From assembly GCA_028820845.1 (NCBI GenBank), contig JAPPII010000112.1, positions 1 through 45,835 on the forward strand: DNA of 45,835 nt, given 5' to 3'. Under the pieces are notes generated by a model, which was given only the letters and a program-made list of their open reading frames with translations, did not search any database and was not told the DNA's origin. This DNA comes from Candidatus Poribacteria bacterium. GTDB taxonomy: Bacteria; Poribacteria; WGA-4E; WGA-3G. Positions 39,722-45,777 of this stretch are shown in pieces; the stretch's first letter is position 1; every line of letters begins with the position of its first letter. A program made the position numbers and the translations under genes.

Positions 39722-40174
39722 ATGAACTTAAGAAAAAAAGCTGAAGCTCTACCAAAAGCATTACGGCGAAAAATCATCATGGATTATCAGGAAACGGATT
39801 GGCATACGTTTCTTAAAGAATTGTTCCAAGCAATGCAGCCAGATTACACCGTTGAAATCACTCACGGTCCACAGGAATTTGGTAAAGATCTCGTTATCCT
39901 TAAGGTTGATAATTTTACTAAAGAGGTTATTGGTGTAGTAGTCAAGCGCGGGCGTATAAACGGTAAGACGCTCGGTGATGTTGATGATTTGAAATCGAGA
40001 ACTGAAATTGTACTGTCAAAGGGTGCCGAGAAAACACTTCGGGAAATTAAGAGCCAGATCGAACAAGCCTTAGCACATCCTACCGAAACAAAGTCAATCC
40101 TTGAAGATCTACCTGTTTCCAAAGTTTTCGTTGTGTTAGCGGTGATTTTAGTAAAAATGCGCGAAGAAGATTAA
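39722..40174 (+). CDS. Mrr-like restriction-endonuclease-fold domain, N-terminal part of a frameshifted NACHT gene
   Basis: 150 residues, interrupted at its end. DYTVEITHGPQEFGKDLVIL (41-60) and GVVVKRGRI (71-79) fit a PD-(D/E)xK Mrr-like fold with Glu45, Asp56 and Lys75. The usual Glu/Gln two residues before the lysine is Val73, so cleavage activity is uncertain. The reading frame loses sense after about 40130. The adjacent frame then continues with VSGDFSKNARRRL, a segment expected next in this protein family. I read this as the N-terminal part of one 799-residue protein with the following frame. Confidence 0.75.
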   Translation: MNLRKKAEALPKALRRKIIMDYQETDWHTFLKELFQAMQPDYTVEITHGPQEFGKDLVILKVDNFTKEVIGVVVKRGRINGKTLGDVDDLKSRTEIVLSKGAEKTLREIKSQIEQALAHPTETKSILEDLPVSKVFVVLAVILVKMREED

Positions 40175-42120
40175 CAAGTGAAATCGCCTCAGAAATTGAG
40201 GTTTTCGATATAGAGTGGCTCATCAACAATTTTACTGAGTTTTATCCTCAGATTTTCTTTGAAGGACAAGTTGCGGATTTCTTACAAAAGAAGACCAACG
40301 AACTTGAGGAGAGCCATCGGCGAGGGGAATCGGGTAACAATTTATCTGAGTACTTCGTTGCTCCTTTAATTAGACCGCTTAGTGCTCCTCTTGAATTTGA
40401 CGAAAAGACTATAAAAGCAATTTGGAAAAAAAGAAAATTTTCCTTCTCATATCTACGAAAAATTTCTTCTGAGCATCAGAAAAAATTGATTTTATTAGGC
40501 GACCCGGGGACCGGCAAAACGGGCGCGATGACGAAATTAGCAATTGATATGTATCAGGATGCTTACAAACGACTGTTAAAAAAACCAGGTGGATCTGATG
40601 AAGGTATATCTGTCCCTGTGTTTGTTACCGCAAGGGAATTCTTAGAAGTAAAATCAGCAGAAGACTTTTTGACTGCATACTTCCAGTCTGAAGAAACTAA
40701 AAACCGTTTCAAGGTAGGTACTATGATCGTTGATGGGTTAGACGAAATCGACTCCGACCACCGAACGGGTTTCATTGATGAATTGGATCGATTCTCGGAC
40801 GCAATTGAGTGTTCCTATATCCTTACTAGCCGAAAAATTGATATTCTTAATACATTACCTCATAAATATGAGAAGTATGAGTTGCTCCCATTTGAATTCA
40901 GTCAGGCCCTAAAAATGGTTTCCAAATTGATAGTTGATCGTAACACTTTAGAGGCTATGAAAGAGAGTCTTGAAAAGATACAGGCACAGATTCTCTTGGT
41001 GCCGCTCTCTTTAATGCTACTTGTCGAGTTGGTCGAGGAACATAAGGAAGTTCCTGCTTCGGTAACCGAACTCTATGATCGATTTTTTGACATGGTACTC
41101 GGTAGGGAAGATAAAGATAGAGGAATTGGAGTTTTGTTTGATTACCTCATCAAAAAGAAATTTCTCGGTATCCTTGCTTATCGCGAGTTTAGAAGCAAAA
41201 ACAGATTGGCGATGCCTCGCGAGGAGTTTGAAAGCTTTCTCAGTTCTTACACAGCGGAGTACCAATGGAGCCCAGAAACAGTTGAGGGTTTTGTACGAGA
41301 AATAGAGCGGGCGGGTATCCTGAATGGACGTGCCGAAGTGATTTTCAAACATAGGTCTTTCTTGGATTACTTCACCGCATTCTATATTCACGAAAATAGA
41401 GAAGACATTGAAAATTTGAACGACGTGATTGTGAACACTTATTTCGATGATATTTGGGGAGAGGTTGCGTTTTTTTATATCGGTTTACGTAGAGAAATAA
41501 GTCAAGAGTTATTGGAGAGGATTTATTCATATTCCAATGAGGAACTAATAACGGACTTGGGAGCACAACTCCCTCCTACCGAAGATCTTTGTAAACTTCT
41601 TGGAGGACGGTTGTTGCAGGCTGGATGGCACTCACCAGCCCAACGCCATCTTTACGGTATTGAAAAGGCGGTTCGTTCCGCGCCGCGAGTGCGTGATAAA
41701 TTCCAAGAACTCATAAATTCCTCAGATTCTAATATCCCTAGCATCGTGTCTGACTTTGTTGCACTAACCTTAAGTGATCTCTCTTTTAACAGCGGTTTTT
41801 TGCAGGAACATGCCAAGAGCGTGCTGAAACAGCTAGTTAGTTCCAAATCTGAAGATGAAATCTATATGGGGGTTATGTTGTCTTGGTCACTGCGCCGTTT
41901 TCTTAAACCTGATGAGGTGGATGCAAATATAGATGCAATTCTTGAGCGGTTGGTTGGGGTGCCGGAAAAATCACAGGCCCGGATGCTACTCTTGTTGGCC
42001 TTGATAGGGGAAGATAAGGAAACCCGGAAACTGATTAGACGGCAAATAAATCGGTTGAAAAAGAGAGCTCCCGAAGTTTTTAAGCCACTATTACCTGCCA
42101 AACGAAAGGGTTTCCGATAA
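40135..42120 (+). CDS. NACHT P-loop NTPase, C-terminal part of a frameshifted gene
   Basis: The frame is open from about 40135 with no ATG before the NTPase; the first bacterial-type start is a TTG at 40486, directly at the P-loop. Counted from 40486, Walker A is GDPGTGKT (5-12) and Walker B is TMIVDGLDEID (79-89). RKIDILNTLP and a winged-helix-like region follow (FKHRSFLDYFTAFYIHE). The last 200 residues are helical, HEAT/ARM-like. NACHT proteins with an N-terminal nuclease-like domain act in anti-phage defence (STAND ATPases related to Avs systems). Restoring one base near 40131-40137 fuses both parts into a 799-residue protein. Confidence 0.8.
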   Translation, partial: VSGDFSKNARRRLTSEIASEIEVFDIEWLINNFTEFYPQIFFEGQVADFLQKKTNELEESHRRGESGNNLSEYFVAPLIRPLSAPLEFDEKTIKAIWKKRKFSFSYLRKISSEHQKKLILLGDPGTGKTGAMTKLAIDMYQDAYKRLLKKPGGSDEGISVPVFVTAREFLEVKSAEDFLTAYFQSEETKNRFKVGTMIVDGLDEIDSDHRTGFIDELDRFSDAIECSYILTSRKIDILNTLPHKYEKYELLPFEFSQALKMVSKLIVDRNTLEAMKESLEKIQAQILLVPLSLMLLVELVEEHKEVPASVTELYDRFFDMVLGREDKDRGIGVLFDYLIKKKFLGILAYREFRSKNRLAMPREEFESFLSSYTAEYQWSPETVEGFVREIERAGILNGRAEVIFKHRSFLDYFTAFYIHENREDIENLNDVIVNTYFDDIWGEVAFFYIGLRREISQELLERIYSYSNEELITDLGAQLPPTEDLCKLLGGRLLQAGWHSPAQRHLYGIEKAVRSAPRVRDKFQELINSSDSNIPSIVSDFVALTLSDLSFNSGFLQEHAKSVLKQLVSSKSEDEIYMGVMLSWSLRRFLKPDEVDANIDAILERLVGVPEKSQARMLLLLALIGEDKETRKLIRRQINRLKKRAPEVFKPLLPAKRKGFR

Positions 42121-43728: not shown

Positions 43729-44024
43729 CTGCAAAACCTTCAACTTCAGACAGCTGCCATGGGGTGTCTAACGAGAACGCTTGTAGGCGCAGGATGTCTA
43801 ATGATTTCTTTGACAACCAGTGCGGCATATTCATATTGATATCTTCACACTTGAAATACCAGAGTCTACTATACCCTCGTATGGTAATTGGGCGAGGCGG
43901 GACAAGAACGGTATGAGGGATCTCTATCTCATCAATTTACCGAAAACCCTCGAAACTAAAACGATGTTCGTTGTCCAGTAAGTGAAACGAGTAGTCGTTC
44001 AATATTGAGTTTATAGGGGATCCT

Positions 44025-44093
44025 GTTTGTAGTAGGGCAATTCATTACCCGTTATTGACTTGTGGACGTGCGATAAATCGCACTACTACGAAC
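44025..44093. repeat. paired-hairpin repeat, inward-facing arrangement
   Basis: GTTTGTAGTA (44025-44034) leads into the hairpin GGGCAAT-tc-ATTaCCC. After a spacer comes GTGCGAT-aa-ATCGCAC (44068-44083), then TACTACGAAC (44084-44093). The outer tags pair with one mismatch. The modules are the same as at 6091-6148 but in opposite order. Confidence 0.75.
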
Positions 44094-44135
44094 CATCCCT
44101 CAAGTTCAAAGTTGAAGGACTACGAGGAGGTTTTT

Positions 44136-44441
44136 ATGTATTGGAAAATTGTGAGAGTATTTCTTTTTTTACTTTTGGGTGTTGTTTTTTATGCGTATAA
44201 TGAATGGGCATCAAATGACAATCCAGTACCCCCGCCTCCGCGGCCTGAGGAAGTATGGCAAAAGTGGGTTGAGAAACAGCATGGTTTGGGGAACAAAGTG
44301 CTGAATGTTCTAGAATCAGAGGCGTGGATAGAAAAATATAGGGACGAAATAGATATCCCGAATCAAATTGCGTTCGGGAAACCCTATACTATATCAGAGT
44401 TTCCTTTGAGTTTACTATCTGAAGTCTTGGCACTCAGATAG
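44136..44441 (+). CDS. small membrane-anchored hypothetical protein, probably frameshifted
   Basis: 101 residues from the ATG at 44136, chosen because AGGAGG precedes it; the longer frame from 44055 runs through a palindromic repeat. A membrane segment at about 5-21 (IVRVFLFLLLGVVFYAY) is followed by a proline-rich stretch (PVPPPPRPEEVW) and a soluble part. The frame ends abruptly in EVLALR. The frame one base back continues with LGTQIAVDPKGRYRLVLRSD, so this is likely the first half of one 221-residue protein. No family recognised. Confidence 0.55.
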   Translation: MYWKIVRVFLFLLLGVVFYAYNEWASNDNPVPPPPRPEEVWQKWVEKQHGLGNKVLNVLESEAWIEKYRDEIDIPNQIAFGKPYTISEFPLSLLSEVLALR

Positions 44442-44800
44442 CGGTTGATCCGAAAGGTAGGTATCGCTTGGTTTTGCGATCTGATCAGGCGGTTGATCTG
44501 AATGGCAAAGCCAGGGAATTGCCTCCAAAGCCACCGCCTCCCGATGAAGTTTTGAAGGTTGGCGACAAGTTCTGGTATACAGGAACAATGGGAGGAGTTA
44601 CTCAAGACTCTAAAGGCGTAATCGTAATAGAGGGAGGTGAAAAGCGTGAGAATACATCTGGAAGTTTGGATATTAAAGGGGGAACTGTACTCTGGAATAA
44701 TAATTATATCTATAAGGCTTTAGAACCTACAGAAATTCATTTGGATTTAGACGATAAAATCCTTAAAATCAAAGGTAAAGTTACTTGCACACCCCGATAA
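44423..44800 (+). CDS. C-terminal part of the probable frameshifted hypothetical protein
   Basis: The frame is open from 44423, just after a stop. The first start-like codon is a TTG at 44468, without a good ribosome binding site. It contains LGTQIAVDPKGRYRLVLRSD, a proline stretch (ELPPKPPPPDEVLKVGDKFW) and beta-rich sequence (KGVIVIEGGEKRENTSGSLD). Restoring one missing base near 44415-44425 joins it to the upstream frame. Both halves carry a similar PPPP-x-EEV/DEV motif, consistent with one protein or an internal repeat. Function unknown. Confidence 0.45.
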   Translation, partial: SLGTQIAVDPKGRYRLVLRSDQAVDLNGKARELPPKPPPPDEVLKVGDKFWYTGTMGGVTQDSKGVIVIEGGEKRENTSGSLDIKGGTVLWNNNYIYKALEPTEIHLDLDDKILKIKGKVTCTPR

Positions 44801-44839: not shown

Positions 44840-45124
44840 CCTCTTTTGTCAAGAAAAATAAAGGAGCAGTGTTTCCGACTCCGTCGTTTGTTTGGCGAAG
44901 GTTTCCGAAGAAAACCGTTACTATCTGCCACTTCTACCATTTTGGTACCCTTTGCAACAAGTGGCGAAGGGTACCGTTTGGACAGCGAAGCCGTCCAAAC
45001 TTGCCAAAATGGAGTTTGCTGGCAGATTTTGCCACTTTTGCTTGCCAAGGTTTCCAAGCAAAAGGTCTCGTTTCAGAGCCGTTCGCCTCTGAAACTGGCA
45101 AAATCCTGAGGCTTGCCAAAGAGG
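44840..45124. repeat. nested inverted-repeat (multi-cruciform) element
   Basis: First fold: ATCTGCCA (44923) pairs with TGGCAGAT (45020), and CCATTTTGG (44937) with CCAAAATGG (45004). These enclose hairpins GGTACCCTTTGC/GCGAAGGGTACC (44944-44975) and GTTTGGACAGC-gaa-GCCGTCCAAAC (44976-45000). Second fold: GATTTTGCCA (45025) pairs with TGGCAAAATC (45096), enclosing CTTTTGCTTG/CAAGCAAAAG (45035-45064) and GTTTCAGAG/CTCTGAAAC (45070-45095). CCTCTTT (44840) and AAAGAGG (45118) may close the whole. The core about 44937-45057 has no stop in any of six frames. Confidence 0.8.
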
Positions 45125-45159
45125 AAAAGACAGGGGTTTGCACACCGAGAATATAAGAG

Positions 45160-45777
45160 ATGAAAAGGTTCTTGTTCTTCGGGCTTTGTGTTTTTCTGGC
45201 AGCGTGTTTGCTGCTGATACATTATCAACAGAGCTCAAAAGTGAGCCGACGGAAGCCACCCTTCAAGGTTCAGCGAGTGAAGCCACGTCCACCGGAAATA
45301 CCTCAGAAGTCACCTGTCGCTTCACAGAAGTCGCGACCTGATATACCTCCGCTGTTTATTCCGTATAAGAACACAACTGATTTTCTGAGAGGGGAGAACG
45401 CAAAGCGTTGGTTAGAACAAAAGGAGTATACAGTAAAACGACAGGGCAATAGCAAGTTTTACTTTCTCTATGAGGACGATCGACTCGTCACTCATGGACA
45501 TCAAGTGACCTATTATCAGAATGCGCTGTGGATTGCGGCTCTCAAACCGGAATACGATTCGGATAAAATGGATCAAACATCTTGGAAAAAGAGGATACAG
45601 GGTTGGAGGGACGAGGGATATACGCAGAAAAGTGCAGATTGGCTAAAAACGCGTCCAGATATTGACATCAATCCAGAAAACGTTGAAAAAAGAGCAATAA
45701 TTATGCCGCCCAACAACAACGTAATAATCACTAAGGATGATAACGGTACTTTGATCGTCTTTTTCAAAAGTCGATAG
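45160..45777 (+). CDS. hypothetical anchored protein, possible lipoprotein
   Basis: 205 residues. MKRFLFFGLCVFLAAC shows a hydrophobic start with LAAC at 13-16, which could be a lipobox, although a second hydrophobic stretch (LLLIHY) follows and a simple signal anchor is equally possible. A basic proline-rich linker spans about 25-65. The remainder is a soluble mixed alpha/beta region (ENAKRWLEQKEYTVKRQG; KKRIQGWRDEGYTQKSADW). No family recognised. Only a weak ribosome binding site is seen. Its N-terminal layout of short anchor plus Pro-rich linker resembles the split gene at 44.1 kb. Confidence 0.7.
   Translation: MKRFLFFGLCVFLAACLLLIHYQQSSKVSRRKPPFKVQRVKPRPPEIPQKSPVASQKSRPDIPPLFIPYKNTTDFLRGENAKRWLEQKEYTVKRQGNSKFYFLYEDDRLVTHGHQVTYYQNALWIAALKPEYDSDKMDQTSWKKRIQGWRDEGYTQKSADWLKTRPDIDINPENVEKRAIIMPPNNNVIITKDDNGTLIVFFKSR

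Follow-up and report, generated by a model that had tools for sequence, protein, structure and literature searches.

The nest of inverted repeats at positions 44840–45124 of the window, by which we mean the whole stretch of 45,835 nucleotides analysed (the entire contig C112 of a 5.7-Mb genome from a sponge-associated Candidatus Poribacteria), is likely to represent a family of mobile palindromic elements nested in a left end (LE) of IS200/IS605 type. If this reading is right, members of one palindromic element family nest in IS200/IS605 ends and can enter coding sequence without target duplication, the absence of which would suggest that hairpin loops are entered by single-stranded DNA. The finding would also bear on the way in which short palindromic repeats such as REPs and Rickettsia palindromic elements move.

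Fold and stop-free core of the nest

A sequence-only reading of the window had described two adjoining three-way junctions, and every arm of both was found where it had been placed. The first junction comprises an 8-bp stem (ATCTGCCA/TGGCAGAT, 44923–44930/45020–45027) and a 9-bp stem (CCATTTTGG/CCAAAATGG, 44937–44945/45004–45012) surrounding two hairpins. The perfect 10-bp outer stem of the second (GATTTTGCCA/TGGCAAAATC, 45025–45034/45096–45105) surrounds hairpins of 10 and 9 perfect bp, and the bases GAT at 45025–45027 are common to both junctions. The order beyond chance proposed for this layout was confirmed by RNA folding of 44840–45124, which lay far below dinucleotide shuffles on both strands (plus strand: −106.9 kcal/mol, z −5.57; minus strand: −111.3 kcal/mol, z −6.58). 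In either case none of 200 shuffles folded as well, and the counter-evidence named in advance, a fold no better than that of shuffled sequence, was not encountered. The nest is the strongest GC-corrected fold within the window, and the segment 44863–45160 gave a z of −4.98 with DNA parameters.

The limits 44840–45124 contain the junctions as claimed, but the unit is larger and the left limit reaches into upstream leader sequence. An extra stem, TTTGGC(G)AAG/CTTGCCAAA (44891–44900/45112–45120), encloses both junctions, as does a leader hairpin spanning 44867–45147; the RNA fold of 44863–45160 recovers the LE stems, the extra stem and both junctions within. The claim of a core lacking stop codons in all six frames also held, its length being 139 bases from 44934, slightly above the 'about 120' first given. 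This stretch is the longest of its kind in the window (the next measures 92 bases), and such a length was reached by approximately 0.15% of 2000 shuffles. A 112-aa minus-strand ORF across the nest was rejected as a coding gene, since it exists only because the hairpins are free of stops.

A protein encoded on the contig has its nearest relatives in Candidatus Poribacteria. In a second assembly of the same species the region is 99% identical, and two of the differences fall within the nest (BLAST; contig G083:C61). BLAST of the entire element against its own genome, 40 relatives and 85 genomes of the phylum returned this copy and pieces, and nothing else; the window nest is known from one species and two genomes. 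The objection that other copies might be lacking holds in part, the remaining copies all being diverged modules. An accidental clustering of inverted repeats, or an artefact of assembly, would agree with the location near a contig end and with the lack of a close copy elsewhere in the same genome (BLAST). Such an origin is nevertheless hardly credible given the shuffling results, the presence of the nest in an independent assembly and the homologous modules found elsewhere.

The hairpin framing the nest

The edges of the nest, AAAGGAGCAGTGTTTCC (44860–44876) and AAGACAGGGGTTTGCACACCGAGAATATAAGAGATGAAAAG (from about 45127), match the two halves of one hairpin that is uninterrupted in many Poribacteria, the halves 44860–44876 and 45126–45166 being adjacent in relatives. 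The upstream flank CTTTTGTCAAGAAAAATAAAGGAG (44840–44866) resembles the flank of other left ends, which in intact copies carries a promoter-like TTGACA directed into the element. It is followed on the minus strand by the inner arm of a basal stem P1, CAGTGT (44867–44872), which pairs with ACACCG at 45142–45147 with one mismatch, and by a degenerate arm GACTCCGTC of an apical stem P2 (44877–44885), whose partner GACAGGGGT at 45129–45137 was assigned from the fold and from alignments to L126 and L169. On the far side of the nest, the outer LE part (45129–45159, minus strand) consists of GACAGGGG (P2), ACACCG (P1) and a 12-nt terminal tail AGAATATAAGAG. It adjoins the target motif TTCAT (45160–45164, minus strand), i.e. 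the ATGAA start of the host gene. This ORF (45160–45777, plus strand) encodes 205 aa with a hydrophobic N-terminus; it has no Pfam match, and no relative was found among 60 Poribacteria and related genomes.

This framing structure is read, from sequence comparison, as the left end of an IS200/IS605-superfamily element because its hairpin is shared with tnpB and isrB elements and has a fixed ATGA flank. In one setting, the uninterrupted hairpin lies 5' of an intact tnpB and is directed away from it (L140, L144), the L140 gene being confirmed by PF07282 and PF01385; TnpB loci with the hairpin also occur in the genome of the window (L099/L170 and L101/L172). The second setting is the 3' end of isrB-type genes (L132, L136) that have an RRXRR domain and no match to an HNH model. 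This reversal between TnpB and IscB/IsrB elements is to be expected of a hairpin that marks the target-side transposon end: the TAM stands before the target with TnpB (PMC8612924) and after it with IsrB (PMC9581776). DtIsrB has an NTGA TAM and cuts ATGA and TTGA targets (PMC9581776); insertion of IS200/IS605 elements takes place on the 3' side of a short target, which is not duplicated (PMC8612924).

The motif ATGA (TCAT on the element strand) was found within 12 nt after 20 of 23 left-end hairpins, and it also adjoins the hairpin of the window. With a search pattern lacking ATGA, every distinct LE-type copy still adjoined this motif; the other matches of the same pattern, located in coding sequence, are not LE hairpins. 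The ATG beside the LE often opens a long reading frame, which places the element exactly at a start codon. TTCAT being the complement of ATGAA, the terminal hairpin becomes the leader of the host gene, and IS200/IS605-type elements with this target thereby bring the hairpin right up against the start codons of host genes. Left ends directly before ATGA were observed in L005, L109, L111, L115, L118, L123 and L125–L137, and at 45160 of the window.

The window thus shows two features of an IS200/IS605 left end, conservation of the hairpin with TnpB or IscB/IsrB-type elements and the adjoining target motif. No tnpB, isrB, transposase or right end was recognised beside the site in the window, so that the term 'left end' is based on homology of the end itself, and the window LE is probably a solo or decayed end. 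The four Y1 transposase loci of the same genome contain no recognisable copy of it.

Several additional features were observed around related left ends. The isrB-type genes of L132 (652–1497) and L136 (469–1497), of about 342 aa, overlap the terminal hairpin with their 3' end (...SGVSSPE before the stop), and genes of this kind occur in several near-identical copies in G047 and relatives. Weak matches to HEARO, the IscB omega-RNA, were detected just upstream of left ends in L116 (1669–1893, minus strand) and L109 (1337–1510, plus strand); no iscB was seen adjoining them, and they are possibly stand-alone omega-RNAs. They lie upstream of some LEs and not in the nest, and were discarded as its identity. 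L005 contains, at about 1470–1850, an apparent short ends-only element with a left-end hairpin and a right-end-like hairpin CCCCTGACTTTAGTCAGCGGG, and without tnpB.

Modules of the insert and their relatives

A 240-bp insert (44886–45125), delimited by alignment to the uninterrupted LEs L126 (another species) and L169 (own genome), replaces the apical TAAA loop of the LE hairpin and holds three modules, M0, M1 and M2. A module is a three-way junction of about 80–96 bp composed of an outer stem, a hairpin A, a 5-nt linker and a hairpin B. Its family consensus shows an outer stem TAGGAAAATCGGG/CCCGATTTTCCTA, a core of the hairpin A loop that is usually GCAACGAAGTGGC, and GTAAC or GTTAC as linker. 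The first relative, L138, is a similar nest in another LE detected by a weak BLAST match, and a search with L138 led to L140, L141 and L142. The covariance model R1 was built from these four sequences only, the window sequence being excluded. Among 98 loci, it matched only those retrieved with R1 itself and gave no spurious match in the approximately 80 others.

M0 (44891–45120, plus strand), being split by M1 and M2, was assigned by its sequence match to L138 and by fold rather than with R1. It is made of the outer stem TTTGGC(G)AAG (44891–44900) and CTTGCCAAA (45112–45120), a degenerate hairpin B (44900–44916), the linker GTTAC (44917–44921) and hairpin A (44923–45027). Its sequence AAAACCGTTACTATCTGCCACTT matches L138 (BLAST, E 0.005) and is also present in L182/L184. 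Once M1 and M2 are removed, the insert reads hairpin B, GTTAC, ATCTGCCACTTC...GTTTGC..GGCAGAT, which is near to L182 and L184 (ACCGTTACCATCTGCCACTTCGTTGCAGAT).

Both remaining modules show the outer stem, hairpin A, 5-nt linker and hairpin B of R1 with a significant score, all E-values being rough owing to a quick calibration. M1 (44937–45012, plus strand) lies within the loop of M0 hairpin A. It is closed by the stem CCATTTTGG/CCAAAATGG, contains hairpins at 44944–44975 (loop GCAACAAGTGGC) and 44976–45000, and was matched by R1 at 44942–45007 with a modest 25 bits (E 6.3e-5 on the window, 0.008 genome-wide). M2 (45025–45105, minus strand) lies beside M0 hairpin A in opposite orientation, closed by GATTTTGCCA/TGGCAAAATC, with hairpin B at 45035–45064, then the linker, then hairpin A at 45070–45095; R1 matched it at 45023–45108 on the minus strand with 36 bits (E 3.6e-8). 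M2 is closest in likeness to modules of other species. Between the arms of its hairpin B (CTTTTGCTTG/CAAGCAAAAG) and their counterparts in L140 and L141 (CTTTTGTTTG/CAAACAAAAG), a single compensated pair is changed.

Covariation in homologous regions, which the sequence-only reading had called for, was present: 12 of 32 stem pairs were changed on both sides in the alignment of L138, L140, L141 and L142, a figure that describes relatives of the modules and not the window locus, since the window nest occurs in one species only. In this alignment 98% of cells pair, as against 41–52% with 0–1 changed pairs when partners were slid by 1–3 columns. The covariation was taken from these four sequences alone; in an eight-sequence MAFFT set, L183 and L189 were out of register.

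R1 matches occurred in 7 of 85 genomes, copy numbers being lower bounds because this search missed both window modules and a run on the window's own genome recovered only M1. Phage and plasmid collections gave no match, and the long exact outer-stem pattern was absent from viral contigs. A 20-nt match in a vWA-like gene (L002, L134) belongs to conserved coding sequence and was taken as chance, as was a weak R1 match in L181. The viral 17-mer match L188, in a coding, tape-measure-like gene, was rejected while L189 was retained. L180 was treated as a decayed copy. No description of this family in Poribacteria was found in the open literature.

Modules at unrelated sites

The foldback mobile element, one of three options offered by the sequence-only reading, is the one supported by the data, as related modules were found at unrelated sites, with clean empty sites for one of them; the location inside an IS200/IS605-type terminal hairpin had been missed. 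Uninterrupted LEs (L143, L145) contrast with the module-filled L138, L140 and L141. In L138, L140, L141 and L142 the module occupies one common LE position, and these modules probably descend from one insertion. L138-type insertions are situated at the junction of two LE stems and not at the apex.

The most precise case is that of G006, where a 96-bp module lies in frame within an ORF of about 1000 aa (L179/L190). Empty sites were found in two relatives, L195 and L208, which read CHVDAATVENIQTFP and CHVDAATPESIQEFP where the filled copy reads CHVDAETV[...]QEFP. Comparison of L190 with both revealed no target duplication (GTT[96 bp]GAA, with at most 1 ambiguous base), and more homologues of this ORF also align without the module. 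It is the one in-gene case with empty sites found. The idea that scarcity of stops would allow entry into genes is borne out for this relative, not for the window copy. In this protein family (L190–L209), many homologues have a longer, different insert there, consisting of about 79 aa of ordinary protein sequence.

Other modules lie elsewhere. In G012 (L183), the module is placed between the stop codon of a phage-like gene and a cluster of capsid-type genes, functions being assigned from sequence only, and these surroundings appear to be a prophage-like region. On a phage contig (L189), it precedes a radC-like ORF. In G047 several copies, some of them with a single hairpin, are embedded in a dispersed repeat about 160 bp long (L182, L184–L187), which might be what carries the module around this genome. 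The repeat ends with GCCTGC/GCAGGC around one or two module hairpins.

These occurrences bear on two further explanations of the nest. It could be the elaborated LE of a single IS200/IS605 lineage, grown by local hairpin duplication and template switching, with modules that are not mobile. The four filled LEs indeed share one insertion position, hairpins within the module look interchangeable (L182–L187), and for Halanaerobium, inserts with hairpins have been reported both in tnpB genes and in IS605 ends (PMC7290912). However, the same module, loop and linker are found outside LEs, in the ORF with empty sites, the prophage-like region and the phage contig, and M2 is inverted relative to M0 and resembles modules of other species, which makes local growth unlikely.

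Alternatively, the nest could serve gene 45160 as a structured, regulatory 5'-leader RNA and owe its retention to the RNA fold. It immediately precedes the start codon, 44863–45160 folds stably as RNA (z −3.8), the LE hairpin precedes the start codons of many genes, and the stems of the module family covary. Yet folding is stronger on the minus strand, modules are found in either orientation and in unrelated settings, among them coding sequence, the prophage-like region and the phage contig, and any palindromic DNA maintained through self-complementarity should show covariation. Moreover, the nest matches no family of Rfam 15 even at relaxed thresholds, and gene 45160 is without relatives in which a conserved leader could show. 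A structured RNA, also among the options of the sequence-only reading, was neither demonstrated nor dismissed by these data; as an account of the nest, a regulatory leader seems rather improbable.

A possible route of insertion

For a mobile palindromic family in a transposon left end, the following scenario can be proposed. An LE would have inserted 3' of TTCAT on the minus strand, hence exactly at the ATGAA start of gene 45160, and a small non-autonomous palindromic DNA element would then have invaded its terminal hairpin. M0 would have taken the place of the hairpin loop, after which M1 would have entered the loop of M0 hairpin A and M2 settled beside it in reverse; this order, LE, M0, then M1 and M2, is suggested by the nesting. 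The module probably moves as single-stranded DNA: it would settle in exposed hairpin loops, leaving the target unduplicated, with a Y1 HUH transposase acting in trans. Such a route is suggested by the lack of target duplication at the in-gene site, by the nature of the window sites, which are hairpin loops (LE loop and hairpin A loop), and by the hosts, IS200/IS605 elements whose Y1 transposases act on single-stranded DNA hairpins. A preference for loops can at most be hypothesised, the G006 site lying in coding sequence and L138-type sites at a stem junction.

A broader reading, conceivable rather than probable, can be put forward tentatively: the modules would constitute an undescribed class of non-autonomous mobile DNA, present in Poribacteria and at least one phage, that lands in hairpin loops of other mobile DNA, including those of its own copies. 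Nests would thereby grow within transposon ends, and the class could enter genes in frame as well.

Comparison with known elements

IS200/IS605 ends resemble the frame of the window in having a terminal hairpin by a short target, in the absence of duplication, and in being common to tnpB and isrB elements; ends-only derivatives are known as PATEs (PMC7290912). The nearest precedent among the literature found is the IS605 of Halanaerobium hydrogeniformans, which contains hairpin inserts of 28 and 64–67 nt in an end and in tnpB, the tnpB inserts not being found outside that gene (PMC7290912). In contrast, the family described here forms three-way junctions, occurs outside IS200/IS605 elements as well and nests within its own copies.

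Rickettsia palindromic elements (RPEs) are short palindromic repeats of about 150 bp inserted in frame in genes (PMC10969869). They belong to another phylum than Poribacteria and are likened to the modules by behaviour alone, in-frame insertion being seen in one case (L179, G006) and not in the window copy. To our knowledge, RPEs display neither a conserved three-way junction nor nesting in transposon ends.

REPs, hairpins of 20–40 bp tagged with GTAG or CGTC, are presumably mobilised by a Y1 transposase (RAYT) (PMC3733652). REPs and BIMEs are, like the modules, short hairpin elements often paired in opposite orientation, whereas the modules measure 80–96 bp, form a three-way junction and have no constant tag at their ends, where flanks differ; identity with tagged REPs was rejected on size and tag. 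Double-hairpin or repetitive hairpin-forming elements from fungal, algal and sponge mitochondria are mobile, clustered and also found in genes (PMC2800124), but they are organellar, structurally different and without IS200/IS605 association. Classical MITEs and foldback elements are small, non-autonomous and provided with inverted repeats, as here. Classical MITE identity was rejected, the sole site with clean empty counterparts showing no target-site duplication.

Other observations in the window

The final 50 or so bases of the contig (45784–45835) diverge from the otherwise near-identical same-species contig G083:C61. Upstream of the nest, a separate palindromic repeat at 43990–44100 (GTAGTAGGGCAATTCATTACCC ... 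GTGCGATAAATCGCACTACTAC) has an unusually low folding energy and is unrelated to it. Two short consecutive ORFs at 44055–44800, without Pfam match, resemble one membrane-anchored gene split by a frameshift. Further upstream, at 39722–42120, a weak Mrr-like restriction domain, just below the cut-off, adjoins a weak NACHT/STAND-like ATPase, and the two are possible defence genes.
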